This document shows, one piece after another, positions 1 to 16,537 of a stretch of DNA of 22,397 bases. The notes under the pieces were generated by a model, which ran no database searches, was not told the DNA's origin, and saw only the letters and a program-made list of their open reading frames with translations. The position numbers and the translations under genes are program-made. Each line of letters opens with the position of its first letter. The stretch's first letter is position 1. Source of the stretch: a virus; IMG/VR virus record IMGVR_UViG_3300021142_001840, positions 1 to 22,397 of that record; one strand, given 5' to 3'.

Positions 1-144
1 CCTCCCGCCCATTGCAACCATATCTGGGTCAGGCGGAGGTGCCGGTGCATCGACTCGGTCACCTAGTGCATTGTTCATAAACCCAACAAATTTTGGATCA
101 TTTATTGGTTTTTTACCTTCTTTAATTATTTCCCAGATTCTCAT
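1..144 (-). CDS. Truncated small phage protein, candidate internal head protein (left edge)
   Basis: An open frame reads from an ATG at 144 down to the window edge with no stop, giving 48 visible residues, so the C-terminus is missing. It begins MRIWEIIKEG; residues 7-10 read I-K-E-G, matching the (L/I)-x-E|(A/G/S) site cut by T4-type prohead protease gp21 at the end of capsid-targeting peptides. After a short KKP stretch comes an Asp/Pro-rich segment (APAPPPDPD). No Shine-Dalgarno sequence precedes the ATG; an AATAAATA box lies at 150-157 instead. The superoxide dismutase gene ends 26 bases upstream in the same direction. I do not recognise the family. That it is a real gene rests on the start context, codon-like composition and co-orientation; the internal-head-protein idea is inference. 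Confidence 0.6.
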   Translation of the reverse strand, partial: MRIWEIIKEGKKPINDPKFVGFMNNALGDRVDAPAPPPDPDMVAMGGR

Positions 145-170: not shown

Positions 171-731
171 TTAACTTACTCGACCGACTCTAGAACCAAT
201 GACATTCCAGTTCATTATTTTCCATTGGTTTTCAAGATATTCTTTCTTCTCACTCTGATAGTCTAGAGCCCATGCATGTTCCCACCAGTCTACTAGTAGT
301 ATTATATCCATTTTAATCTGATGATTTTTTATGGTCTTAATGCTACCGTCTCGAGCTAGATATGCCCATCCACTGCCCTGTATTTTCATTGCTTCTTTTT
401 CAAAAGCCTCTTTAAATTTGTCAAAGTTAGTAAAATATTTGTTGATAAAATTAAGAGCTATTGCTGTAGGCTCATTAGATCTAGAAGGACTTTGGAATTG
501 TCTAAAATATATGTCGTGTAAAAAAGCCCCTGCTTCGTTAAAGTCCGGGTCACCCTCACCTTTGTTATAGCGATCAACATAACCCTTATACAATTCACCA
601 TAATGATAATCTATCGTAGCTTTACTCATGCTGGGAGCTAGGGCTGTTTTACTGTAAGGTAATGGTGTTTGCTCCAAAGTTTTAGGAGTATTGCCCTCAT
701 TCAGGCTAACATATCTAATAAAGTTATACAT
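171..731 (-). CDS. sod: Fe/Mn-family superoxide dismutase with N-terminal extension
   Basis: Converts superoxide to oxygen and hydrogen peroxide. The whole 186-residue protein fits the Fe/Mn SOD fold: the PLPYSKTALAP entry motif (23-33), metal ligands His43 (DYHYGELY), His72 (FLHDIYF), Asp148 and His152 (DWWEHAW), and GSGWAYLA at 119-126. Gly68, four residues before His72, and the NHQ at 136-138 look Mn-type rather than Fe-type, so metal choice is open. The gateway Tyr is kept (Tyr51), but the residue equivalent to E. coli His30 is Leu47. Unlike bacterial SODs, about 20 residues precede the usual start; they form a short hydrophobic/basic stretch ending SLNE|G at 9-13, a prohead-protease-like site. 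It has no Shine-Dalgarno sequence and lies right behind a late-type box. Enzyme family is firm; virion packaging is inference. Confidence 0.95.
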   Translation of the reverse strand: MYNFIRYVSLNEGNTPKTLEQTPLPYSKTALAPSMSKATIDYHYGELYKGYVDRYNKGEGDPDFNEAGAFLHDIYFRQFQSPSRSNEPTAIALNFINKYFTNFDKFKEAFEKEAMKIQGSGWAYLARDGSIKTIKNHQIKMDIILLVDWWEHAWALDYQSEKKEYLENQWKIMNWNVIGSRVGRVS

Positions 732-753: not shown

Positions 754-771
754 TTTACAAGGAGAGTTATT

Positions 772-1038
772 ATGAGAGAATTTATTAAACGAGTTTTTGG
801 GTTAAAACCAAAGGCAGTAGAACCCGAAGCACCTTATAAAGTAGAAACACCAACAACGCCAGTTGCTGATGATGTTACTCGTGCAATGTTAGAGTCAATT
901 CCAGCACCAGTTCCTGCTAAAAAGACTGCGGCTAAAAAAGCTAAAACAACTAAGCAATTAATCGAAGAACATCCTGATTACTTGCCAGAGACTAAAGTTA
1001 AAAAGCCACGTGCTCCAAAAAAGCCTAAAGCAGTTTAA
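772..1038 (+). CDS. Small basic Lys/Ala/Pro-rich protein, H1-tail-like
   Basis: An 88-residue protein. The start at 772 is chosen because a strong AAGGAG (759-764) sits 7 bases before this ATG; an upstream in-frame ATG at 691 lies inside sod and has no support. It opens with MREFIKRVFGLKPK, passes through an acidic/proline-rich middle, then a basic tail (AKKTAAKKAKTTK at 49-61; KVKKPRAPKKPK at 75-86) like histone H1 C-termini and other DNA-coating tails. No catalytic motif is visible. (L/I)-x-E sites occur at 63-65 and 71-73, so head-protease cleavage is conceivable. It diverges from sod and converges with uvsE, overlapping its 3' end by 14 bases. Nucleic-acid binding or internal-head function is inferred from composition only. 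Confidence 0.8.
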   Translation: MREFIKRVFGLKPKAVEPEAPYKVETPTTPVADDVTRAMLESIPAPVPAKKTAAKKAKTTKQLIEEHPDYLPETKVKKPRAPKKPKAV

Positions 1039-4271: not shown

Positions 4272-6551
4272 ATGCCAGTAGCTACAGGAGATGCTTTCCG
4301 TTATGTCACAACAAGTGGCACAAACGTGGGAGAAAATGACGCAACGTTAATAGCGCCAGACGTTAATGGAACGCTTACAATCGTAGGCGGGTTCGGTATT
4401 ACGTTAACTGCTGATGCTGTAAACCGTAAAATCACTATTACAAATACCGGAAATGGGTCAGGTGCGTTAACAACTATTACAACTCAAAACTCTGCTGGCA
4501 CTTATTATCCTGTATTTACAAGTGGCGGAGCAAGTCCTACAAGTACACTATACTACGAAACTACAACAAATCCGTTAACTTATAACCCAGGCACTGGTAC
4601 TCTAAACGTACAAAATTTAGTGCTAGGCGGTGCAGGAACTATTCAAATTGACAACGTAACTAGCACTGGAGTTACTGGTACAGGTAACTTAGTATTTGGA
4701 TCAAACCCTACGCTTGTTACCCCTACGCTAGGTGCGGCAACTGCTACAAGTATTAACAAAATTGCATTAACAGCGGTAGCAACTGGTGCAACAATCACAG
4801 CAACTGATGGCACAACAATTACACTACCTAGTACAACTGGTACAGTAGCGTTAAACAATCAAACATTCTATTTAGGTAGCACACAAATTGCTATTAATAG
4901 AACAACTGGTTCGTTAGCATTAACTGGTATTACAAGCATAGATGGATATGCAGGAAGTATAGCCGGTGGCGCAATTGGATACATTCCTTATCAATCGGCG
5001 GCTAATACTACACTATTTGTTGCCGGTAATACAACTACAACTCCTCAATTTTTAACATCGACTGGTACTGGTAGTGCCGCACAAGCACCTACACTTACTA
5101 GTTCAACTGGTAGCGGTAGTGTAGTGTTAGCAACAAGTCCATCATTAACTACACCTATATTAGGTGTAGCTACTGCTACAAGTATTAATAAAATGGCAAT
5201 TACTGCACCTGCTACTAGTTCAACACTAGCAGTAGCAGATGGTAAAACGTTTACGGTTAGCAACACAATTACTCTAGCCGGCACTGATTCAACAACAATT
5301 ACATTACCAAGTACAACTGGTACTGTACCTTTAAACAATCAAACTTTCTATTTAGGAACAACTAGTGTAGCAATTAATCGCGCCAGTGCTAACCTAGCAC
5401 TTACTGGCATTAGTTCAATAGCATTGCCTGGAAGTGTTAGTGGCACATCAACACTACAGCCACAAGCCACTGCGGGCACAACTACATTTACATTACCAAC
5501 AACTACCGGCACGTTGGTGGGCACGGGGGATAGTGCAACTGTATCGAACACAATGTTGGCTAACTCTAGTTTTAATATAGGCACTACAAGTATAACACTA
5601 GGCCGTGCAAGTGCTAACCTAGCACTTACTGGTATCAGTTCAGTGGCGTTTCCTGGTAGTACCAGCGGCACAGCAATTCTACAGGCAACTGCTACAGCAG
5701 GTACCCCAACACTATCGTTACCGATTACAACCGGTACACTGATTGGCACAGGCGACAGTGCAACGGTTACTAATACAATGTTGGCTAATACTTCAGTAAC
5801 CTTTGGATCAACTAGTGTAGCATTGGGAGCAACTTCAACAACCTTAGCTGGACTAACAAGCATAGATGGTACCACAGGATTAACTAGTGCTTTTGCTACA
5901 CCAAACGGTACAGTGGCACTATTAGGAGCCGCAACTACTCTTAACTTAGCTAATACAGCAACAAGTTTGTCAATCGGTAATACTGCTACTGCCGCACAAA
6001 CGGTTAACTTGTTTACAGCATCGACCGGTAACAGTTTTTATTACTTTGCTACTGGTGCTACGACCTCGGGCAACATTAAAACAATTAATATTGGTACTGG
6101 CGGACTAGCATCATCAACAACTAACGTAACACTTGGTGCTACAACTGGAACAAGTTCAGTTACTGTTAACGGATCTCTAACAGCTAGCACTAGCATATTG
6201 TTAAAAGGTACTGGCGGTATTGGATATGCTACAGGCAGTGGATATGGCGGAACTATAACACAAACTGGCAGTAGAACGGGTGCTGTAACAGTAAGTTATA
6301 TTACTGGTGCTATTACTTTATTTGCCGCGGCTCCTACTGTAGGTACCTACGTAACCTTTACAGTAACTAATACTACCGTAGCCGCAACAGATACTGTTAT
6401 TATTAACTTTAAATCAAGTACCAACACTTATATTGGATTTGTATCAGCAGTAGGTACCGGAAGTTTTAACATTACATTTGCCAGTGTTAGTGGTACAGCA
6501 AGTGATAGCCCTGTAATTAACTTTGCAGTAATTAAGGGCTCTGCTAATTAA
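4272..6551 (+). CDS. Large repeat-rich tail-fibre protein
   Basis: A 759-residue protein extremely rich in Thr, Ser, Gly and Ala, with beta-strand-length periodicity typical of long trimeric fibres. Two repeat families are visible. The first spans about 146-223 and again 290-383, sharing ATATSINK, TTITLPSTTGTV and LNNQTFYLG. The second spans about 371-431 and 446-507, sharing ASANLALTGIS and GTGDSATV.NTMLAN. The last 115 residues are different: a glycine-rich linker (GTGGIGYATGSGYGG, 646-660), then a beta-rich domain with VAATDTVIINFKS and the end VINFAVIKG, which I recognise as a recurrent C-terminal tip in aquatic phage fibres. The ribosome site AAGAGGA (4258-4264) fixes the start. The gene ends overlapping the stop of the convergent gene at 6548. 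Fibre identity is confident; receptor is unknown. Confidence 0.88.
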   Translation: MPVATGDAFRYVTTSGTNVGENDATLIAPDVNGTLTIVGGFGITLTADAVNRKITITNTGNGSGALTTITTQNSAGTYYPVFTSGGASPTSTLYYETTTNPLTYNPGTGTLNVQNLVLGGAGTIQIDNVTSTGVTGTGNLVFGSNPTLVTPTLGAATATSINKIALTAVATGATITATDGTTITLPSTTGTVALNNQTFYLGSTQIAINRTTGSLALTGITSIDGYAGSIAGGAIGYIPYQSAANTTLFVAGNTTTTPQFLTSTGTGSAAQAPTLTSSTGSGSVVLATSPSLTTPILGVATATSINKMAITAPATSSTLAVADGKTFTVSNTITLAGTDSTTITLPSTTGTVPLNNQTFYLGTTSVAINRASANLALTGISSIALPGSVSGTSTLQPQATAGTTTFTLPTTTGTLVGTGDSATVSNTMLANSSFNIGTTSITLGRASANLALTGISSVAFPGSTSGTAILQATATAGTPTLSLPITTGTLIGTGDSATVTNTMLANTSVTFGSTSVALGATSTTLAGLTSIDGTTGLTSAFATPNGTVALLGAATTLNLANTATSLSIGNTATAAQTVNLFTASTGNSFYYFATGATTSGNIKTINIGTGGLASSTTNVTLGATTGTSSVTVNGSLTASTSILLKGTGGIGYATGSGYGGTITQTGSRTGAVTVSYITGAITLFAAAPTVGTYVTFTVTNTTVAATDTVIINFKSSTNTYIGFVSAVGTGSFNITFASVSGTASDSPVINFAVIKGSAN
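4707..5420 (+). repeat. Fibre repeat family 1 (two diverged copies)
   Basis: Copies at about 4707-4940 and 5139-5420 encode the same motif order. DNA similarity is highest around TTAAACAATCAAAC at 4851 and 5331, so duplication is visible at both protein and DNA level. Confidence 0.7.
5382..5792 (+). repeat. Fibre repeat family 2 with an exact DNA repeat and hairpin
   Basis: Copies at about 5382-5564 and 5607-5792. A 23-bp block is identical at 5385-5407 and 5610-5632, offset 225 bp (75 codons). Each block contains the perfect hairpin AGTGCTA-acc-TAGCACT. Confidence 0.75.
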
Positions 6552-7778: not shown

Positions 7779-7807
7779 ATTATAACGTCAAACGAGCAGT
7801 ATGTCAA
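7779..7807 (-). promoter_or_regulatory. Perfect consensus sigma-70 promoter of the orphan early gene
   Basis: On the minus strand TTGACA (7807-7802), a 17-base spacer and TATAAT (7784-7779). The -35 overlaps the stop codon of the E1-beta-like gene. The stretch CTTGACATACTG is shared with the ligase promoter. Confidence 0.88.
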
Positions 7808-8343
7808 GCAAAATATAACTGTGGGTATTCTGCCACAATGTGTATACCGCCCGCATTGTAAGCATTTTTGTATATGTCCAAAATATCTTCAGCAGATTTT
7901 AGATCGTAAAATTGGATACTTGGGCACATGCTCTTAAATTCAGCAAAGAAATTGGCTTTGTGCTGTGGGCCCGGGTCCAAAGGATCGTCCGAACCCTTGC
8001 CAACTCGTATGATAATATTGGCTCGGTGCCCGGTCATTTCTTCATACTTGTCCAAATGATTAATCAATTGGTTAGCGGCACATATTAGAAAGTTCCAACG
8101 AGGATAAAAACTGACTACAGTTTGGCCCATCATACTCATGCCCAAACTCATGCCCATTTGTGTTTCTTCCATAACAGGCACTTCGATCATTTTATCTTTG
8201 ACTACGTTTACTAAAGTAGTACTCATCGGATTTCCTGGATAGACAATTTGCTGTCCAATGAATACAGTATTAGATTGCTCGCCTAAAAATGTCATTGCCT
8301 CGGTTAAGGCATCTTTATAAATTGATGTTTGTGGTTTACTCAT
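7804..8343 (-). CDS. TPP-dependent E1-beta-like subunit (transketolase pyrimidine-binding domain only)
   Basis: 179 residues matching the pyrimidine (PYR) domain of pyruvate-dehydrogenase E1-beta and transketolase. VPVMEETQMG (55-64) lines up with the TPI(S/A)E..G motif whose glutamate (Glu59 here) activates the TPP aminopyrimidine. MMGQTVVSFYPRW (71-83) follows the usual pattern; ANQLINHLDKY (90-100) corresponds to the D.i.N...K stretch, and GPQHKANF (125-132) to GPQHS. The roughly 130-residue C-terminal transketolase domain is absent, and the frame ends cleanly at 7804. The obvious partner is the E1-alpha-like gene at 15366-15995 in the same operon. Its start overlaps the previous stop as ATGA. 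Fold is confident; substrate is unknown, and with no E2 or E3 gene here a carboligase or transketolase-like reaction is more likely than 2-oxoacid dehydrogenation. Confidence 0.85.
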   Translation of the reverse strand: MSKPQTSIYKDALTEAMTFLGEQSNTVFIGQQIVYPGNPMSTTLVNVVKDKMIEVPVMEETQMGMSLGMSMMGQTVVSFYPRWNFLICAANQLINHLDKYEEMTGHRANIIIRVGKGSDDPLDPGPQHKANFFAEFKSMCPSIQFYDLKSAEDILDIYKNAYNAGGIHIVAEYPQLYFA

Positions 8344-8786
8344 GGCACTGAAGGTTTGTTATCGTCTGCAACATCCCGCCCCCAACTAATTTCCCAACCT
8401 TTAAAGTCAGCGGCAAGACAATCAACCTTATAATCTTTACGCCCGCCTACAACTTCTTGGATAATGTTTTTGCTTGTATTACGAATTCCATTTAGTCCGT
8501 GAGTCAATTCAAGATTGTTTCCATCTTTAATCCCCCTGCGGTAATTTGACTCGTTATGCCAAATATGTAAGTTCATTTGAGCTAGAACAATAATAGCACG
8601 GATTGTTTCTGCGTCTATTTTAGAATCCGGATTCTCGTCTAAAATTAACTGTATGTCGTGAACGATGTCAGCAATTTCTTCTCCGTACTCTTTTTTGTAG
8701 TCTGTAATAAAAACTTCTTTAAGTTGTACAATGCTTAGTCTGTCGATTAATTCACTGAATGTTTGGAGGTATCTGCGTTGTGTCAT
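8340..8786 (-). CDS. Small helical protein of sugar operon, faint DUF4254-like pattern
   Basis: 148 residues, mostly helical. It opens with a helix containing LIDRLSIVQLK (13-23) and has HIWHNESNYRRG (74-85) followed by LNGIRNTSKNIIQ (98-110). The order I-W-H-x-E ... R ... L-N-x-x-R-N ... I resembles the DUF4254 pattern, a family often next to glycosyltransferases; this is a by-eye match and may be coincidental. No catalytic site can be assigned. It sits between an SDR and the E1-beta-like gene with ATGA overlaps on both sides, so it is translated in step with them. A helper role in sugar or TPP-enzyme chemistry is inferred from position only. Confidence 0.8.
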   Translation of the reverse strand: MTQRRYLQTFSELIDRLSIVQLKEVFITDYKKEYGEEIADIVHDIQLILDENPDSKIDAETIRAIIVLAQMNLHIWHNESNYRRGIKDGNNLELTHGLNGIRNTSKNIIQEVVGGRKDYKVDCLAADFKGWEISWGRDVADDNKPSVP

Positions 8787-9721
8787 AGATTTGTAAAGTT
8801 CCGGTTATTGTAAACAACTGTCATCTGGTATGCATTAATTAGTTGTTCTATACCATAGTCTAAACTAAAAGTGGGTTTCCATCCTAGCGATTCTAATTTA
8901 GCATTACTTACAATATAATTACGTTGATCAAAGTCTTTATTGAACTCGTCTTGCTTAATTGCTAATTTTGGCACATACTTTTTGATACACTCAGCAAGTT
9001 CTAACTTGCTTAGGTTAGCAGTAGACAGTCCTACATTAAATGCTTGCCCTCGACACTTGTCGTAGTTTTCGATTATAAACTGAAATGTTTGGGCAATGTC
9101 CTGCACATGAATGTAGTTGCGTTTAAAATGTGCTTCAAACAATACCAAGTATCCATCAGTAACTGCTTTATAAACAAAGTCGTTCACTAGTAAGTCTTGA
9201 CGCATACGTGGACTAACACCAAATACAGTTGCTAGCCTTAGCGCAACACCGTTACCACTACCTAGAACAACATCTTCTGCATCACACTTAGTTTCAGCAT
9301 ACAAGCTCAAAGGTTTAAAAGGACTGTCTTCTGTTATGATAGTTTCACTAGAACCATATTGGCTATTAGTATTTGGTATGATTAACTTTTGATCATCACG
9401 TAGTGCCATAGAAATGTACTTAACGTGTTTAAAGTTTACATCTACTGCTAGTTCTGGGTTAGCTCGACAAGCAGGCATACCAACAATAGCGGCCAACGGA
9501 ATTATAATATCATGTTTTTTTACTAGTTCTAGCAACTTAGATGTATCTCTAACATCACCTAATACAAATTTAAATCCTTCTCGTTTAAAAAGGTGTAGCA
9601 ATGATAACTGTTTATACAACAGATTATCAAATACAGTTACACTATATCCTTGCGCTAGTAAATGTTCAGCTAGTGTAGAGCCTAAGTAGCCAGCACCGCC
9701 TGTAATTAAAACTCTTTTCAT
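8783..9721 (-). CDS. Extended SDR, NAD-dependent sugar epimerase/dehydratase
   Basis: 312 residues with the NAD-binding motif GGAGYLG (8-14), an acidic residue after the second strand (FDN, 31-33), GDVRD (55-59), and the active-site set NTNSQYGS (117-124) and YAETK (141-145, Tyr141/Lys145). This is the nucleotide-sugar epimerase/dehydratase class (UDP-glucose 4-epimerase-like). LAAIVGMPACRANPE (76-90) and the C-terminal LGWKPTFSLDYGIEQL are usual for the class. All catalytic residues are present, so it is likely active, probably on an NDP-sugar in the cytoplasm. Overlaps of 4 bases at both ends place it in the coupled operon. The exact substrate cannot be read from the sequence. Confidence 0.9.
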   Translation of the reverse strand: MKRVLITGGAGYLGSTLAEHLLAQGYSVTVFDNLLYKQLSLLHLFKREGFKFVLGDVRDTSKLLELVKKHDIIIPLAAIVGMPACRANPELAVDVNFKHVKYISMALRDDQKLIIPNTNSQYGSSETIITEDSPFKPLSLYAETKCDAEDVVLGSGNGVALRLATVFGVSPRMRQDLLVNDFVYKAVTDGYLVLFEAHFKRNYIHVQDIAQTFQFIIENYDKCRGQAFNVGLSTANLSKLELAECIKKYVPKLAIKQDEFNKDFDQRNYIVSNAKLESLGWKPTFSLDYGIEQLINAYQMTVVYNNRNFTNL

Positions 9722-10710
9722 GGTTTGCTATTTGGATCAAATTGGTCTTTGTGAGCACGATACCACTCAATAGTATCCTTTAGTGCTTGTTTGATTTCAC
9801 GCTTTGGTTTCCAGCCTAGCGCATTAATCTTTTCACTAGATACTAGACGTACTGGAATCATAGGTGCTCGATTATTAACATACTCAATTGGATTAGTATT
9901 GCCATCGGCTTCTTTCATCCACTCGAGTAATTGGTTAACGCTGTAACCTTCACCGTAGCATACGTTATAGATATCGTATTTGTCTACGTGTTGAGCAACA
10001 TAAACAATGCCGCCCGCCATATCGTCTGCGTGTAGTACATCGCGAATCTCTGTACCATCGCCCCATACTGGAATTGGATTAAGTCCGTCTGCTACCTTGC
10101 GAATGTTTGCTGGTGTAACGTGACATTTTTCAAAGTCATACTTGTCATTAGGACCAAATGCGTTGCTTGGACGAATAATAATGCACTGCATTGGATCATG
10201 TATTTGATTGCTAAAGAAGTCACACATCATTTCGCCAAAACGTTTCATAGCACCTACTGCTTTATACACAGGTACTAGGGGCATGTTCATGAAGTTAGGA
10301 TCTTCTACAGCGTATACTTCTTTTAAATCACCATTAACGTTTGCTGTACTGATAAAAATAAACTTACGTACTTTGTTAATCCATGACTGCTCCATAATAT
10401 TGTTATTCATTTCAACATTAGGTGTTACATGTAACAAGGGATTAAACTTAGTATCTAATGCGTTACTAGTGTTAGCCGCACAATGTATTACTACATCTAT
10501 GTCTTGCGACACAAATTTAGCAAACTCTGCATCACGCAAGTCACCTTTGACTAATTCAATAGTTTCTGATCCGTCAAAGTCGTTACGTAACCCTCGCTGT
10601 AATGTACTGGCACGTAGATTAGTGAACCCTTGTTGATACAGCACTCGAAGCACATTGGAGCCAATGAATCCGCTTGCCCCTGTTACCAAAATCTTATCTG
10701 TAGTTTTCAT
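9718..10710 (-). CDS. Extended SDR, GDP-fucose-synthase-like, altered active site
   Basis: 330 residues with the NAD(P) motif TGASGFIG (10-17), CAANTS (77-82), FISTANVNG (119-127), RPSNAFGPND (180-189) and VWGDGTEIRDVLHADD, the last two typical of GDP-4-keto-6-deoxymannose epimerase/reductase and related WcaG-type enzymes. The segment corresponding to YxxxK reads YKAVGAMKRFGE (149-160). If Lys156 is the catalytic lysine, as the following RFGE suggests, the tyrosine position is Val152, and the usual VYG tyrosine is Asn126. The fold is clear, but catalysis may be changed or lost. It sits in the middle of the sugar operon with ATGA overlaps. Sugar-nucleotide modification is the likely role. Confidence 0.87.
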   Translation of the reverse strand: MKTTDKILVTGASGFIGSNVLRVLYQQGFTNLRASTLQRGLRNDFDGSETIELVKGDLRDAEFAKFVSQDIDVVIHCAANTSNALDTKFNPLLHVTPNVEMNNNIMEQSWINKVRKFIFISTANVNGDLKEVYAVEDPNFMNMPLVPVYKAVGAMKRFGEMMCDFFSNQIHDPMQCIIIRPSNAFGPNDKYDFEKCHVTPANIRKVADGLNPIPVWGDGTEIRDVLHADDMAGGIVYVAQHVDKYDIYNVCYGEGYSVNQLLEWMKEADGNTNPIEYVNNRAPMIPVRLVSSEKINALGWKPKREIKQALKDTIEWYRAHKDQFDPNSKP

Positions 10711-12107
10711 TTATGGTTTTCTTTAAAATTATTTAAAAAGTGATTTAAATCTTCGGGAGTTCCTATACCCCACATGCTGTCTATTGATTTAGATTTTATT
10801 TTTTTGTTATCGGCAATAGCTTGATTAAAAACAGGACAAACATAAAATTCGTTATTAACTCTAATGTTTTTATCGATCATTTGTTCTGCATATTTAACAT
10901 AGTCACTGCCCTTCTTCCAATAATAAATTCCTACAGTAGCTTCGTTACTAATTACCTTTTTTTCTGCTACTTCACTAACAAACCCGTTATCACCTACTAA
11001 TGCATAACTCCATTTGGGATGGGTAGATTTAAAAGTAATGATTCCACCATCTATTTCATCAGCCATAAATGAATACATACATTCATTACTATTCCATTCT
11101 ACATACTGATCGCTGTTAGCAATAATTAAAGGAAGATTATTATTAATGTATTCTTTAGCTAATAATGTAGAGCAGGCCGCTCCTTCAGTGATTCCGTTAA
11201 GTTGAACAATATCACAACCCGGTGCAATTAAATTAAGTAGATATTTTAAATTGTATTTTTCATAATGTTCTTGTTGAACAATAAAAATATAATGAGCTTC
11301 AATGTTTAAATTTTCTACGACGACTTGAATCATAGGTTTACCGTTGACCTCAATTAGAGGTTTTGGAAATGTATAGCCTTGCTGTGCAAATCTACTACCT
11401 GCACCGGCCATTGGAACTAAAACATTTAATCTACGATCTTTCCAAGGAATATTATTTGTCATTTGTAAACTTATTTGTTGTAATTTTTTTTCAATATCCT
11501 CCCACAATACATCATGAGAGTTTTCTACTGCTAATAGCATTGCACCGCTATTTAACGCACCTTGACGTCCAATATGACTATCTTCGATTATTAACGTATC
11601 TTTTGGCAAGGCGTGTAATGCTATCATGCACTTCCAATACATTTCTGGAAAAGGTTTTGAATTAGTAACATCTTGATTGCTAACATAGTAATCAACATAT
11701 TCCATTATACCAATTCTTAAAAGACTTAATTTTACAGTTTCTCTAATACTGTTACTAGCAACAGCTATCATATACCCTGCTGATTTTATTTTTAAAATTA
11801 TATCAATTAATTTTTTATTTACTGGAAATTTTTTAATAAGTTCAAAGGTTGCTAATTGCTTACGTTGCCAAACCATATCATGATATTCTTGCGGAAGCCC
11901 TTTAGTTTCAGTTAGCAAATTTAATTTGCGTGTTGTATTTAAACCATCATATATAGATAAATGTTCATCTCTCGTAATAACATATTTTTCATCTATACTT
12001 TTTAATGCATCATTAAGACTGTAGTAATGTAACTCCCTACTGTCTATTAATACACCGTCTAGATCAAATATTACTAATTTGTTAGTTAACTGTACAGCCT
12101 GTTTCAT
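10707..12107 (-). CDS. HAD phosphatase - sugar nucleotidyltransferase fusion
   Basis: 466 residues with two enzymes in one chain. Residues about 10-205 are a HAD phosphatase: FDLDGV (14-19, nucleophile Asp15 and Asp17), VASNS (116-120), SKPFPE (150-155) and IIEDSHIG (173-180). Residues about 227-460 are a nucleotidyltransferase of the sugar-1-phosphate type: LVPMAGAGSRF (230-240), FPKPLIEVNGKPM (247-259) and ANSDQ (330-334, metal Asp333). The pairing would dephosphorylate one position of a sugar phosphate and activate another, as in heptose routes, which use two separate proteins for this. The start is set at the ATG at 12107, seven bases after AAGGAG (12120-12115); an in-frame GTG directly upstream is less likely. 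It overlaps the GT-like gene by 26 bases. The sugar is unknown. Confidence 0.9.
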   Translation of the reverse strand: MKQAVQLTNKLVIFDLDGVLIDSRELHYYSLNDALKSIDEKYVITRDEHLSIYDGLNTTRKLNLLTETKGLPQEYHDMVWQRKQLATFELIKKFPVNKKLIDIILKIKSAGYMIAVASNSIRETVKLSLLRIGIMEYVDYYVSNQDVTNSKPFPEMYWKCMIALHALPKDTLIIEDSHIGRQGALNSGAMLLAVENSHDVLWEDIEKKLQQISLQMTNNIPWKDRRLNVLVPMAGAGSRFAQQGYTFPKPLIEVNGKPMIQVVVENLNIEAHYIFIVQQEHYEKYNLKYLLNLIAPGCDIVQLNGITEGAACSTLLAKEYINNNLPLIIANSDQYVEWNSNECMYSFMADEIDGGIITFKSTHPKWSYALVGDNGFVSEVAEKKVISNEATVGIYYWKKGSDYVKYAEQMIDKNIRVNNEFYVCPVFNQAIADNKKIKSKSIDSMWGIGTPEDLNHFLNNFKENHK

Positions 12108-13035
12108 CACATAACTCCTTAATAATACTATAATTGTGTATGTAAGACTTTAATTCACTAAAATGTTGTTTATGAAAATCTTCTCCAGGATTTTTAACAG
12201 CGTTGACTTTAGGTGGCAACTCTAAAAAAAATCTTTCAAATGCATCAATCATAAAATAATTATCAACTGGTATATGTCTCCATAAATTTCTTAATAATGT
12301 ATAATCTAGATTTTCTGATTTTTTTAAATCAATACCCACATCTCTAATGTAGGACCATAATGATACATTAGGGGCCTTTAAACTTTCTTCCCAAAATAAG
12401 TTAGCCTTTTTAATTGTGTCACCGGTTGACACCCAGTATAAGTCACTAGTTTGATATAAAGCATTTGGGTTAGATAACACATTTGTTATGTCTTTTTCCA
12501 AATCAGCTTGTGCATGATAATATGTGTCGCCGCCGTCTTGCATAGGAAAAATAACATCAGGCCTCAGTTTAACTATAATGTCGTAGTTAATCTTGTGCTG
12601 CCTCTCATATTCTTGTAACATCTCTACACTTCGATAATATGAATAATACATTAATGGTGGAAAATATTCCTGCCCAGCTGGTAAATTATACTGTGTAATA
12701 AAATTACGTCGATATTCTTCTATGCTATCGGCTGTAGTTTTGTAATTTTCAATTAAAAATAATTTTGGATTATAAATACTTAAAAATCTATTAAGATCCG
12801 CAGTCTCCACTGGCGCCCAGTTTAGACGATCTGGATTTTTATAGTTAATCCTTATTGAAATTAAATTACTTAAATCGTTTATTACTTTGTCACTATAATT
12901 TTTATTATATTGAGAATCCCATGTGTGTACAAAAAAATCACAATCTTTCCATAGATCACCTATGAACGATTTTATTGCAGGGATTGCCCATACTCCTGTT
13001 CGCAGTTGTCCGCTAAAACAAACACCAATCTTCAT
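12082..13035 (-). CDS. Glycosyltransferase-like protein (SGQLR / HTW / LRPD family)
   Basis: 317 residues beginning KIGVCFSGQLRTG, with DFFVHTWDS (33-41), YYSYYRSVEM (129-138), YDIIVKLRPDVIF (about 150-162) and DLYWVSTGD further on. This set of motifs recurs in uncharacterised glycosyltransferase-like proteins of capsule and O-antigen clusters and in aquatic phages. R-P-D at the end of a strand may play the part of a DxD-type metal or donor site, though this is inference. No membrane helix or signal peptide is present, so it is cytoplasmic. It sits between an SDR and the HAD-nucleotidyltransferase fusion with overlaps on both sides. I cannot name donor or acceptor. Confidence 0.78.
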   Translation of the reverse strand: MKIGVCFSGQLRTGVWAIPAIKSFIGDLWKDCDFFVHTWDSQYNKNYSDKVINDLSNLISIRINYKNPDRLNWAPVETADLNRFLSIYNPKLFLIENYKTTADSIEEYRRNFITQYNLPAGQEYFPPLMYYSYYRSVEMLQEYERQHKINYDIIVKLRPDVIFPMQDGGDTYYHAQADLEKDITNVLSNPNALYQTSDLYWVSTGDTIKKANLFWEESLKAPNVSLWSYIRDVGIDLKKSENLDYTLLRNLWRHIPVDNYFMIDAFERFFLELPPKVNAVKNPGEDFHKQHFSELKSYIHNYSIIKELCDETGCTVN

Positions 13036-14015
13036 TTACTTAATACCTTTTTGTATGCTAGGATTGTTTTCATAATACCATCTCGTAAAGTTGTTTGTGG
13101 AAGTATACCGTATTTCTTTTGACGTTCTGGACTTAGGCAACGAACTGGGTCACCGTTCATCTTTGTTTCATCCCATACAATATTTTTAGTTTCGCCTGAT
13201 ATTTCTTTATAGCAATCAACGATTGTTTCAATAGTTTCTTTGATAGTAATTGCTTCACCACACCCAAAATTAATAATATCCTTAACTTCTTTCTTAACTA
13301 CATCAATGCTTGCTTGGGCAACATCATCTCCAAAGACAAAATCACGTCTTGCACTTCCGTTACCCCAACACACTATGTCATCTTCTGCGTTGAATAGTTT
13401 CCAAACATTACTACTGATAACAGTAGCAGTTTGTGAAAACACATCATTAGTGCCGTATATATTGCTTGGACGAATAACAGTCCAGTTATCCCAACCATAT
13501 TGAACTTGAAGTGCTTCTAATGTAGCTTCACCTATACGCTTAGTCCAACCTGGATACCAATCATTCTTACTTGGAGTTGTTACCCACACATCTTCTTCAC
13601 GCATGATTTCTGTAGGTTGATAAACCCCAACTGATGATAGATAAACAAACCATCCTACTTTAGCATCAAAAGCTGCCTTAATCATATTTGTATTAAACAT
13701 TAGCATAGGAAACAAATAGTCTGCAGGCTGTTTACTTGAACGCTCTGGAGATCCTTTTACTCCTGCAATATGCAATACAATATCTACTTTATTATTCTTA
13801 AATAGACTTTCGCAGTTGTGTAGGTAGCGTAGATCCATCATTTTAAACTCTACAATCTCGGGATACTCGTCAAGCAACAGATCCATTTGATGACCCATTT
13901 GTATATCAACGGCAATAACTTTAGCCGCACCTTCTTCCACACACTTGCGAACTGTTGGTATTCCTACTAGCCCATTAGCACCAGTAACAATTATTGTTTT
14001 ATTTTTAAATTCCAT
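13032..14015 (-). CDS. Extended SDR, GDP-fucose-synthase-like
   Basis: 327 residues with TGANGLVG (11-18), HIAGVKGSPE (82-91), PADYLFPMLMFNTNMIKAA (97-115, matching the PADF...N...I..AA stretch of GDP-fucose synthase), LSSVGVYQP (126-134) and RPSNIYGTNDVF (182-193). The YxxxK region is YPGWTKRIGE (154-163): Tyr154 and Lys159 are separated by four residues instead of three, so the catalytic geometry is unusual or the true tyrosine is replaced. C-terminal PVRCLSPERQKKYGI and TLRDGI are normal for the class. Second WcaG-like SDR in the operon after the one at 9718, with only moderate resemblance, so not a recent duplication. Likely acts on an NDP-sugar in the cytoplasm. Confidence 0.87.
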   Translation of the reverse strand: MEFKNKTIIVTGANGLVGIPTVRKCVEEGAAKVIAVDIQMGHQMDLLLDEYPEIVEFKMMDLRYLHNCESLFKNNKVDIVLHIAGVKGSPERSSKQPADYLFPMLMFNTNMIKAAFDAKVGWFVYLSSVGVYQPTEIMREEDVWVTTPSKNDWYPGWTKRIGEATLEALQVQYGWDNWTVIRPSNIYGTNDVFSQTATVISSNVWKLFNAEDDIVCWGNGSARRDFVFGDDVAQASIDVVKKEVKDIINFGCGEAITIKETIETIVDCYKEISGETKNIVWDETKMNGDPVRCLSPERQKKYGILPQTTLRDGIMKTILAYKKVLSK

Positions 14016-15381
14016 TTTGTAAATCTCTCATTAAGTTTTCGTACGGGTTTTGGTTAATAAACGTAGTAAGATGCTGTCGATTATAAATCAATACATCCTT
14101 TAGATTATAATACAAATCGTGTAATTTTTCAATCGGTAAATCATTTAGTTTCTTTATTTCTTGCTCAATCATCGACATGCGTTTTTCAGGATCTGTTTCG
14201 CTGTCATACTCCTCGTTAATATAAGGATGGAAAGTTTTAAATCCTAAACCTTGCAATGTTTTTAATGAATTGTAGTTGCCTACATATATAAATGGTTGCA
14301 AGTTTGCTATAGGTCGAAATGTTTTTTCTGAAATAAATGGACTATCACCGTCATGAAATCTTGTTTCGGATATAATATGAATATAGGTATTCAAATACAA
14401 ATCTTTTTTATTGTTGTTTGTTTGAAAATTAGTTTTTTCAGATTGACTAAGTGCCTGTGTATCAATTTCGTAAGGAAGAATTTGAGTCAGTTGTTTAGCA
14501 AATGCATCTACATCTACATCCTTGTAGTAAGTATTCCAGTATCGTATAGTGTCTAAAACTTCTATTTCACTTATCTTTTCAAGGAAACTGAATATACTAT
14601 TTGACAGTAAATTGTATTTTAATGCTATGTATCCAAGTGTTACTCTATGTTTTCGATTAGCAAGCTGTCTATTAAAACACAAAAATCTTTGAGGTCTAAT
14701 TACGCTAGGATCTAAATTATGTTCTCTAACATAATCTGACATATAACCAAGTCGATTAATGTGCGGGCGTGTCATAACTCGTTCAGCGTCTTCTCGAACA
14801 AATAAACTACCGCATGAGAATTTAATTTTAGAACTAGGAACAGAATAATCATTACCGGATGCAATGATAACATTGCTACCGTCTACTCCAATTGATTCTA
14901 GCATTGAGTCAAATTTTTCTATTTCATCGGGGTAGGTAATTGGATCGTGAACATAATTTATTACTAGTTTAACTTTTCCTAATTGCAAGTATTTTAATAT
15001 AGTTGGAGAAAATGTATCGTTAAAATAATATGTGTATTCTTTACCATCTAAACTAAAAGATTGTTGATCATATAAACGATTTAAATTAGTACGTATTTCT
15101 ATTGGGTATATGTATACAGCGCCGTCGTCTAATATTTGACTAGGAGAAACTATTTCATTGTTAGGATAATGCTGTTTAAAATACTTTAAAAAATTATTAT
15201 GGCTTCTAAATGGAAACTCAGGACCATTCATTATTGTTCGAACAGTATGTTCTGCCATAGATACATCCAACGGTTCAACAGTTCGTTTTATGTGTTCTAC
15301 TAACGCAGGGTGTATACCATTAGCCAATGGAACAACATCTTTACACCAGTTGTCGTATACTAATTTTAAAATGCGATCCAT
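14005..15381 (-). CDS. Glycosyltransferase-like protein with fucosyltransferase-type C-terminal motif
   Basis: 458 residues. The N-terminal part is unrecognised; the middle has RPQRFLCFNRQLANRKHR (229-246). The C-terminal part has FISEKTFRPIANLQPF (349-364), then GFKTFHPYINEEYDSE (380-395) and a helical tail with IYNRQHL. The S/T-E-K-x-F...P-I pattern resembles the nucleotide-sugar-binding motif at the C-terminus of GT10 fucosyltransferases. The gene at 16549-17955 carries the same C-terminal block, so the two are paralogues with different N-termini, suggesting the same donor and different acceptors. Overlaps of 11 and 16 bases with its neighbours put it in the coupled operon. GT assignment is by motif resemblance only. 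Confidence 0.75.
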   Translation of the reverse strand: MDRILKLVYDNWCKDVVPLANGIHPALVEHIKRTVEPLDVSMAEHTVRTIMNGPEFPFRSHNNFLKYFKQHYPNNEIVSPSQILDDGAVYIYPIEIRTNLNRLYDQQSFSLDGKEYTYYFNDTFSPTILKYLQLGKVKLVINYVHDPITYPDEIEKFDSMLESIGVDGSNVIIASGNDYSVPSSKIKFSCGSLFVREDAERVMTRPHINRLGYMSDYVREHNLDPSVIRPQRFLCFNRQLANRKHRVTLGYIALKYNLLSNSIFSFLEKISEIEVLDTIRYWNTYYKDVDVDAFAKQLTQILPYEIDTQALSQSEKTNFQTNNNKKDLYLNTYIHIISETRFHDGDSPFISEKTFRPIANLQPFIYVGNYNSLKTLQGLGFKTFHPYINEEYDSETDPEKRMSMIEQEIKKLNDLPIEKLHDLYYNLKDVLIYNRQHLTTFINQNPYENLMRDLQNGI

Positions 15382-15995
15382 TTTCCAGTTCCGTAATGCG
15401 GGTATTTTGATTTATAATTATAATGTATCACATCTCTAGGAATATCACGTTTGCCATTCCATGTTGCGTCAGTTGGTGTATAAGTCGATACTGCGTTATC
15501 TTCTACAATAAAGTATAAAGGCAAATCAAAGTTTCTAGCGTATTTGTGTACTTCGTAAAAGATACCGCTTTCAAAGCTCATGTCGCCTAAAAAGCACCAT
15601 ACCTTTTCTGTGCCATTGGTTCTTTTAATTTGTTGTGCTACACCTAAAGCAATTGATAGCGTACCGCCAACAATAGCACTACTGTAAAATTGTTCGTTAA
15701 TATTGCATACACTAATAGATTTACCCTTTAGAATTTCTTCAGTAATCCATTCAGGGGATATACCTTTAAGTAGGGCATGATAGTGCGAACGCCATGTAGA
15801 AAATACCCAATCAGTTGTTTCAATTCTTTTAAAGATTTCTATAAGTTCAGTTTCGTTACCGTTTGATAAATGCACCGGACCTCGAATCTTAGCATTTTCC
15901 CATAAGGATACAATAGAATCTTCAAAGTCTATTAGATTTTCTGTAGTGTAAGGAATATCTCTTTTAATAGGATATTGTTCTATATTTGTTATCAC
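15366..15995 (-). CDS. TPP-dependent E1-alpha-like subunit (PP domain)
   Basis: 209 residues matching the pyrophosphate-binding domain of E1-alpha. VFSTWRSHYHALLKG (64-78) corresponds to the TxxRxH..xLxxG motif, IVGGTLSIALGVA (108-120) to the G..G...P.a.G.A stretch, and GDMSFESGIFYEV (137-149) through EDNAVST (165-171) to the TPP/Mg motif GDGx(26)NN. The motif is altered: Met139 replaces the third glycine and Asp166 the first asparagine, but Asp138 and Asn167 are kept at the right spacing. It is shorter than usual E1-alpha (over 300 residues), lacking the C-terminal part. The start codon is GTG at 15995, overlapping the epimerase stop as GTGA, with AAGGA upstream. Its partner is the E1-beta-like gene at 7804-8343. 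No lipoyl E2 is present, so the acceptor may be a sugar. Confidence 0.83.
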   Translation of the reverse strand: MITNIEQYPIKRDIPYTTENLIDFEDSIVSLWENAKIRGPVHLSNGNETELIEIFKRIETTDWVFSTWRSHYHALLKGISPEWITEEILKGKSISVCNINEQFYSSAIVGGTLSIALGVAQQIKRTNGTEKVWCFLGDMSFESGIFYEVHKYARNFDLPLYFIVEDNAVSTYTPTDATWNGKRDIPRDVIHYNYKSKYPHYGTGKWIAF

Positions 15996-16537
15996 TTGTC
16001 ACGTCCTTGTAAGATAGGTGAATCAGTAGGCCATACTATTTTGAAATTTGAATCATCCCACTTTATTACACCTTGCTGATTTTCATTAACATATTCACCT
16101 TGGTAAAACAAACTGTAATGAAAAATGCAATCTGTTAGTGCATAATGCCCATTAGCAAACCCTGGAGGTATTAATACTTGATCTCTAGTATTTTCGGATA
16201 TTATGTAAGATTCCCATTTACCAAACGTTGCACTACCTTCTCGTGCATCAAGCACTACTAGATAAATGTCTCCGACTAGAGCTTGTACCAGTTTCCAAGT
16301 TTTATTGTCATAGTGTAATCCACGTAGGACATTCTTGTATGACTTTGAAAATCTAGTATGTACAGTAACATCATCCGGCAACAACTGATTAACTGGATGC
16401 GTACTAGAGTGATATGTAGTAAATATTTCTCCTCTATATTCTCTATACACCGCAGGAGAATAAACTGGAACTTCTTGTCCAAATGTTTTTAAATATGAAG
16501 TATCTACTGTGTGCCAGTTACTGTCTTTGTAATTCAT
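15992..16537 (-). CDS. rfbC: RmlC-like dTDP-4-dehydrorhamnose 3,5-epimerase family protein
   Basis: 181 residues, the normal length for the RmlC cupin family that epimerises 4-keto-6-deoxy NDP-sugars. Motifs: LRGLHYD (71-77, catalytic-type His75), KLVQALVGDIYLVVLDAR (82-99), IPPGFANGHYAL (123-134, His131), the FHYSLFYQGEY tyrosine region (139-149), and IKWDDSNFKIVWP (158-170, the usual w.dp...i.WP). All main residues are kept, so it is probably active. No rmlA, rmlB or rmlD is recognisable nearby by sequence, so the substrate may differ from the dTDP-rhamnose intermediate. It has no Shine-Dalgarno sequence, and an AATAAATA box lies just before the ATG in the only gap (11 bases) inside the long operon. 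Confidence 0.92.
   Translation of the reverse strand: MNYKDSNWHTVDTSYLKTFGQEVPVYSPAVYREYRGEIFTTYHSSTHPVNQLLPDDVTVHTRFSKSYKNVLRGLHYDNKTWKLVQALVGDIYLVVLDAREGSATFGKWESYIISENTRDQVLIPPGFANGHYALTDCIFHYSLFYQGEYVNENQQGVIKWDDSNFKIVWPTDSPILQGRDK

Follow-up and report, generated by a model that had tools for sequence, protein, structure and literature searches.

A superoxide dismutase of jumbo phages with a predicted cleavable capsid-targeting leader

The Alt protein of phage T4 is the classic example of an enzyme that is packaged and injected, and phage-encoded superoxide dismutases (SODs) are usually called auxiliary metabolic genes. The capsid-targeting sequence (CTS) of T4 depends on residues 4 and 7 for targeting and on residues 8 and 10 for processing, and foreign enzymes tagged with this sequence are delivered into cells by the phage (PMC9026906). 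Alt itself is cut at both ends, and in phages phiKZ and SPN3US a gp21-related protease removes propeptides from head ejection proteins after glutamate (PMC5694885). These propeptides are much longer than the leader described here, and their cargo consists of inner-head proteins and the virion RNA polymerase, with no SOD. A packaged SOD has been reported from chlorovirus PBCV-1: its late Cu/Zn enzyme A245R is described as a virion component that is associated with lower superoxide levels in infected cells (PMC7019647); it differs from the phage protein in having an unrelated fold and metal, a eukaryotic host and no described phage-type cleavable tag. The literature that we searched, with most subscription journals outside its coverage, yielded no description of a head-packaged phage SOD.

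The window analysed here comprises the whole 22,397 nucleotides of IMG/VR record IMGVR_UViG_3300021142_001840, a 22.4-kb virus fragment that holds no head genes, and its twin contig of 37 kb is also a fragment. Positions 171–731 (minus strand, stop codon included) encode a protein of 186 amino acids that the original prediction had named a SOD, an assignment that our analysis confirmed. The protein matches both Pfam domains, Sod_Fe_C (PF02777, 2e-22) and Sod_Fe_N (PF00081, 2e-9), and its metal ligands (H43, H72, D148, and H152) and gate tyrosine Y51 are invariant in alignment A1 and match the corresponding positions in solved SODs. An AlphaFold2 model computed from an input of 27 phage sequences has a mean pLDDT of 85.7 and matches SODs of the PDB in Foldseek searches with E-values of about 1e-13. 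By both domains, fold and ligands it is an Fe/Mn SOD, with catalysis and metal identity predicted. The locus resembles those of T4 IPI, IPII, IPIII and Alt in its short N-terminal propeptide, its hydrophobic-x-E rule, a gp21-type protease (here in relatives) and its late genes. It differs in that the cargo is a superoxide metalloenzyme, that the leader has 12 rather than 10 residues and that packaging is predicted from sequence.

The protein carries an N-terminal extension, MYNFIRYVSLNE/G (slashes mark predicted cuts), that is absent from cellular SODs. About 20 extra residues had been predicted; the extension was borne out, but its length was not, as chain residue 3–4 of the best FeSOD matches in the PDB aligns with residue 20 of the query, which leaves an extension of about 16–17 residues. 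Residues 1–12 (696–731, minus strand) form the predicted capsid-targeting propeptide and end in a predicted prohead-protease site, L10-N11-E12/G13, with the cut between nucleotides 696 and 695; LNE/G stands in the reading frame as originally stated and fits the gp21 rule (L/I)-x-E/. Given the length of the extension, a cut after E12 would leave a mature SOD (residues 13–186; 174–695, minus strand) that retains all four ligands and the gate tyrosine and starts close to the normal N-terminus of the family. The proposed likeness to a T4 capsid-targeting peptide also stands: the N-terminus of T4 ipII/ipIII, included as a control, reads MKTYQEFIAE/A, and with Y4 and F7 in T4 and F4 and Y7 in the window both targeting positions are aromatic and precede the x-E site. 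Residue 4 is phenylalanine in 45 of 45 sequences, and residue 7 is tyrosine in 27, histidine in 17 and asparagine in one. This aromatic pair is restricted to the leader of the window clade, and more distant leaders are without it.

In the structural model, pLDDT values below 50 occur only at residues 1–13, which constitute its main unstructured part. The leader codons 2–12 show a pS of 0.86 with a pN/pS of 0.13, compared with a pN/pS of 0.19 for the SOD core, which argues that the leader peptide is translated and subject to strong purifying selection. We rejected the motif alone as proof of a leader, since, in two related genomes, internal methionines precede [LIVM]xE[AGSN] with the glutamate at position 8–14 in about 2.7–3.3% of cases, a chance rate of roughly 3%; the argument that the leader is not random comes from its conservation among homologues. 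A signal peptide was rejected on inspection, the hydrophobic core FIRYVSL being interrupted by an arginine.

The SOD family of the window is present on more than 500 viral contigs, and its close phage relatives were sampled twice, as the 80 nearest IMG/VR loci and as a second, more divergent set of 56 distinct N-termini collected with a 59% identical homologue. All 80 nearest homologues carry the leader, and the only large departures still conform to LxE (LSE/D, LLE/E, and LHE/G). In the second set, [LIVM]xE is found just ahead of the SOD domain in 55 of 56 N-termini, and in the 56th (L180) the start was mis-called, the corrected start giving MRDLISLTE/E and thus 56 of 56; these N-termini are related by descent and hence are not independent trials. 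Variants in this set include MREHIDLLE/A, MDLRNTIDLVE/A, MNDIRQTLDLLE/A, MTQDIKHFIDLVE/S, and MRDIIDLLE/E. Judged from these alignments, leader sequence and length drift across phage SODs and the [hydrophobic]-x-E cleavage rule is retained. Among cellular SODs, the nearest ones on genome contigs lack such a leader, and some of them bear unrelated N-terminal extensions; FeSODs of the PDB and bacterial relatives start just before the LPY motif or likewise carry unrelated extensions. Unrelated extensions on homologous phage SODs, named at the outset as evidence against packaging, were not what we found, as both sets have related or equivalent leaders.

Two departures from this layout retain the putative cleavage motif at other positions. 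The distant SOD of Vibrio phage 2.275.O has no N-terminal leader and ends in ...MLDE/SVNIRHLINFISK; its neighbour starts with MFTIRHFIDVMNE/A, and the C-terminal end of the SOD echoes that N-terminal leader. Three contigs encode a fusion of the SOD with an SGNH-like hydrolase domain (338 amino acids; Pfam support for SGNH is weak), namely at L015 563–1579, L062 2103–3119, and L073 5637–6653. The joint is an internal [V]xE/[DG] junction that reads IVKE/D or LVSE/G. It can be aligned with the end of the leader on a stand-alone protein of the related contig G001 (6e-7), which would fit the joining of a tagged gene to the SOD together with its cleavage site. A truncated remnant of the SGNH-like fusion, TKVISESKFSKIGR, is seen in L072 and others.

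The original prediction of a late-type promoter holds. The element ATAAATA lies at 737–743 on the minus strand and ends 5 nt upstream of the ATG of the SOD, fitting a TATAAATA-like late promoter of the T4 type. A divergent copy at 746–752 on the plus strand reads towards the gene at 769–1038, and a further copy at 150–156 on the minus strand ends 5 nt ahead of the gene that follows the SOD. In G001, 47 of 425 genes have ATAAATA[CT] in the 100 nt that precede them, compared with 3.5 expected, a 13-fold excess, and these genes include tail, fibre, and leader-bearing genes. Leader and late promoter are associated in G001 (p=0.02), and in G002 and G012 the association is not significant. In the clade with the gene order infA-sod-erpA, the element can overlap the infA stop codon and is not independent evidence there. 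The two elements at 737–752 stand back to back on opposite strands, and the gap between element and SOD start codon is only 5 nt; with the spacing of T4, the SOD mRNA would have almost no untranslated leader. This layout, with the element next to the ATG, recurs at several other late genes of G001.

The gene order of the window, which comes from a large freshwater phage, is collinear with that of two jumbo phage contigs (356 and 345 kb), from the SOD through a UV endonuclease, QueD, and a fibre-like protein to a ligase. A repetitive, Thr/Ser/Ala-rich protein of 759 amino acids (4272–6551, plus strand), encoded opposite to most of its neighbours, is probably fibre-like. By inspection, 7804–16537 (minus strand) is an island of sugar or surface-polysaccharide genes, which holds NAD-dependent epimerase, RmlC-like, and HAD-nucleotidyltransferase genes and two thiamine-enzyme-like half proteins (7804–8343 and 15366–15995); most genes of this island are without a match in G001 or G002. 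The SOD is followed in most relatives by an ErpA/IscA-type Fe-S carrier (L004 11664–11987; L234 353–676) and preceded in another clade by an IF-1-like gene (L163 contig, about 53570–54640). Locus L234, which combines a SOD fragment with the Fe-S carrier and comes from a Polaromonas MAG contig, is apparently mis-assembled and may hint at betaproteobacterial hosts.

Cleavage would call for a gp21-type prohead protease, the lack of which had been named as a possible objection, and the large relatives encode one. Of seven SOD contigs that reach 250 kb or more, six carry a Peptidase_S77 protease (G001, G002, and G011–G014), among them the two collinear jumbo phage contigs; the seventh, G003, gave no Peptidase_S77 match. 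The protease is also encoded by phage PA5oct and Vibrio phage 2.275.O, and all matches have E-values of 1e-23 to 1e-27. This evidence comes from large relatives, as the window is a fragment and most shorter contigs stop short of the protease region.

Leaders of the same design were expected on other proteins, and they are present, beginning with the gene directly downstream of the SOD. Its 5' end lies at 1–144 (minus strand) and encodes the leader MRIWEIIKE/G; in the 100% identical contig L004 (10588–11322) the product has 244 amino acids. It matches no Pfam family, is found on only nine IMG/VR contigs and is likely another packaged protein. Relatives fill the same slot with MKIWELLNE/G (L021; no family match) or MRLYEFLNE/N (L023), and the occupants in L042, L049, and L075 have no such leader. 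Encoded at 5628–6389, 8 nt beyond the SOD gene, the leader-bearing L023 protein belongs to the ADP-ribosyltransferases (Pfam, 5e-15) and also matches an Alt-like PHROG (3.6e-4), so that a relative of the window carries an Alt-like counterpart of the ADP-ribosyltransferase cargo of T4. On the other side of the SOD, and beside it in most relatives, a divergent gene at 769–1038 (plus strand) encodes a small, basic, K/P-rich protein (MREFIKRVFG...). It has no clear cleavage site and resembles the basic internal proteins of T4 in composition only, which makes it a possible internal protein.

Across G001, [LIVM]xE[AGSN] is found at 24 of 425 gene starts compared with 2.7% of internal methionines (p=0.003), and the Asp, Gln, Lys, and polar control motifs show no significant excess. 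The enrichment is less clear in G002 and G012 (p=0.10 and p=0.085, respectively). Homologous late genes of the relatives start with MKSFTQYLVE/S and MKSFKNYLTE/S, the former being a G001 protein that resembles PA5oct gp282, a structural protein detected by mass spectrometry (MS; homology by inspection). Two peptidoglycan-degrading enzymes of G001 (L114 12020–13336 and 14703–15350) have leader-type starts, a LysM-lysozyme with MRFTEFKLVLKE/N and a PG_binding-M23 peptidase with MRAKEFLILE/A, and both are possibly packaged too.

Among cultured phages, PA5oct encodes the nearest homologue, gp223, which is 43% identical and carries the leader MNDSIKKYISIAE/A. This SOD, of the PA5oct/MIJ3 jumbo phage type, resembles that of the window in sequence and in having a leader, which here ends in ...SIAE/A, and the PA5oct genome encodes a head protease. 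The protein is annotated as hypothetical in PA5oct and as sodB in MIJ3, and the records give no processing or role. The ESI-MS/MS note stands in the GenBank record of gp223, and we took the MS status of all PA5oct proteins from such notes. As the MS-positive list also includes ribonucleotide reductase, thymidylate synthase, and GTP cyclohydrolase, which are likely intracellular enzymes or contaminants, the detection of gp223 is supportive and no proof of packaging. Leader-like starts are modestly enriched among MS-positive proteins of PA5oct (8 of 93 compared with 9 of 351 others, p=0.013, using annotated starts); other patterns are weaker, and the enrichment is not significant for proteins of at least 100 amino acids.

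The original proposal that the SOD may be packaged in the head is supported by leader conservation, the protease of the relatives, the tagged neighbours and the ESI-MS/MS note of the PA5oct homologue. From these we infer targeting, cleavage, injection, and function as follows. The SOD would be made late from the ATAAATA promoter of a T4-type jumbo phage, and leader residues 1–12, with F4 and Y7 followed by L-x-E, would act as a capsid-targeting sequence that directs the protein to the prohead core. A gp21-type protease would cut after E12 during head maturation, and the mature SOD, starting at G13, would ride inside the capsid. We consider this course, from late synthesis to carriage in the head, very probable. 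The enzyme would then probably enter the host with the DNA and remove superoxide at the start of infection, ahead of any phage gene expression; delivery with an antioxidant action at entry is a step that we put at about even chances. The mechanism in general is that of T4, and SOD as its cargo appears to be new for phages.

The main rival to host delivery accepts packaging and cleavage and lets the SOD work within the virion, where it would shield the packaged DNA or the capsid against superoxide and the iron chemistry of sunlit waters. The packaging evidence is identical for both readings, the relatives are contigs from environmental metagenomes and threading a folded SOD dimer through a tail tube may be difficult. 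However, cell metabolism is the main source of superoxide, neighbouring tagged cargo such as the Alt-like ADP-ribosyltransferase makes sense only inside the host, and T4 does bring CTS-tagged foreign enzymes into cells (PMC9026906). We therefore regard protection of the virion as possible and the less favoured of the two. It is improbable that the SOD is a late enzyme of the usual intracellular kind, an auxiliary metabolic gene product whose leader serves contact with the core or membrane or protein stability. Viral SODs have been reported as auxiliary genes in blooms (PMC12542629), and the MS-positive proteins of PA5oct include likely intracellular enzymes, but the end of the leader always obeys the prohead-protease rule although its sequence varies, it matches T4 propeptides, and the leader recurs on neighbouring and structural proteins and persists within the SOD-SGNH-like fusions. 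A mis-assigned start codon with an untranslated leader, to which the lack of a Shine-Dalgarno sequence directly upstream and the late element abutting the ATG might point, has a negligible probability and was rejected on the basis of codon-level selection on the leader (saturated synonymous change with few amino-acid changes), with no other methionine standing before residue 35 and the same start layout recurring in relatives and at several other late genes.

A broader proposal, which we judge equally balanced between true and false, is that widespread freshwater jumbo phages load their heads with active Fe/Mn SOD by means of a cleavable CTS and inject it together with Alt-like and other cargo, bringing superoxide under control by the time the genome enters. 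The SOD locus would then be a modular cargo slot, marked by tagged neighbours, a C-terminal tag in the Vibrio phage and polyprotein cargo that is cut in the prohead. If capsid-borne, phage SODs would work ahead of all phage gene expression, as the phage equivalent of the SOD packaged by the chlorovirus, and would suggest that oxidative stress is a barrier when the genome enters. For jumbo phages that lack a cultured host, the tag rule, [LIVM]xE at residue 8–17 of a late gene, could help to predict further injected cargo, with PA5oct as a cultured system for testing it.
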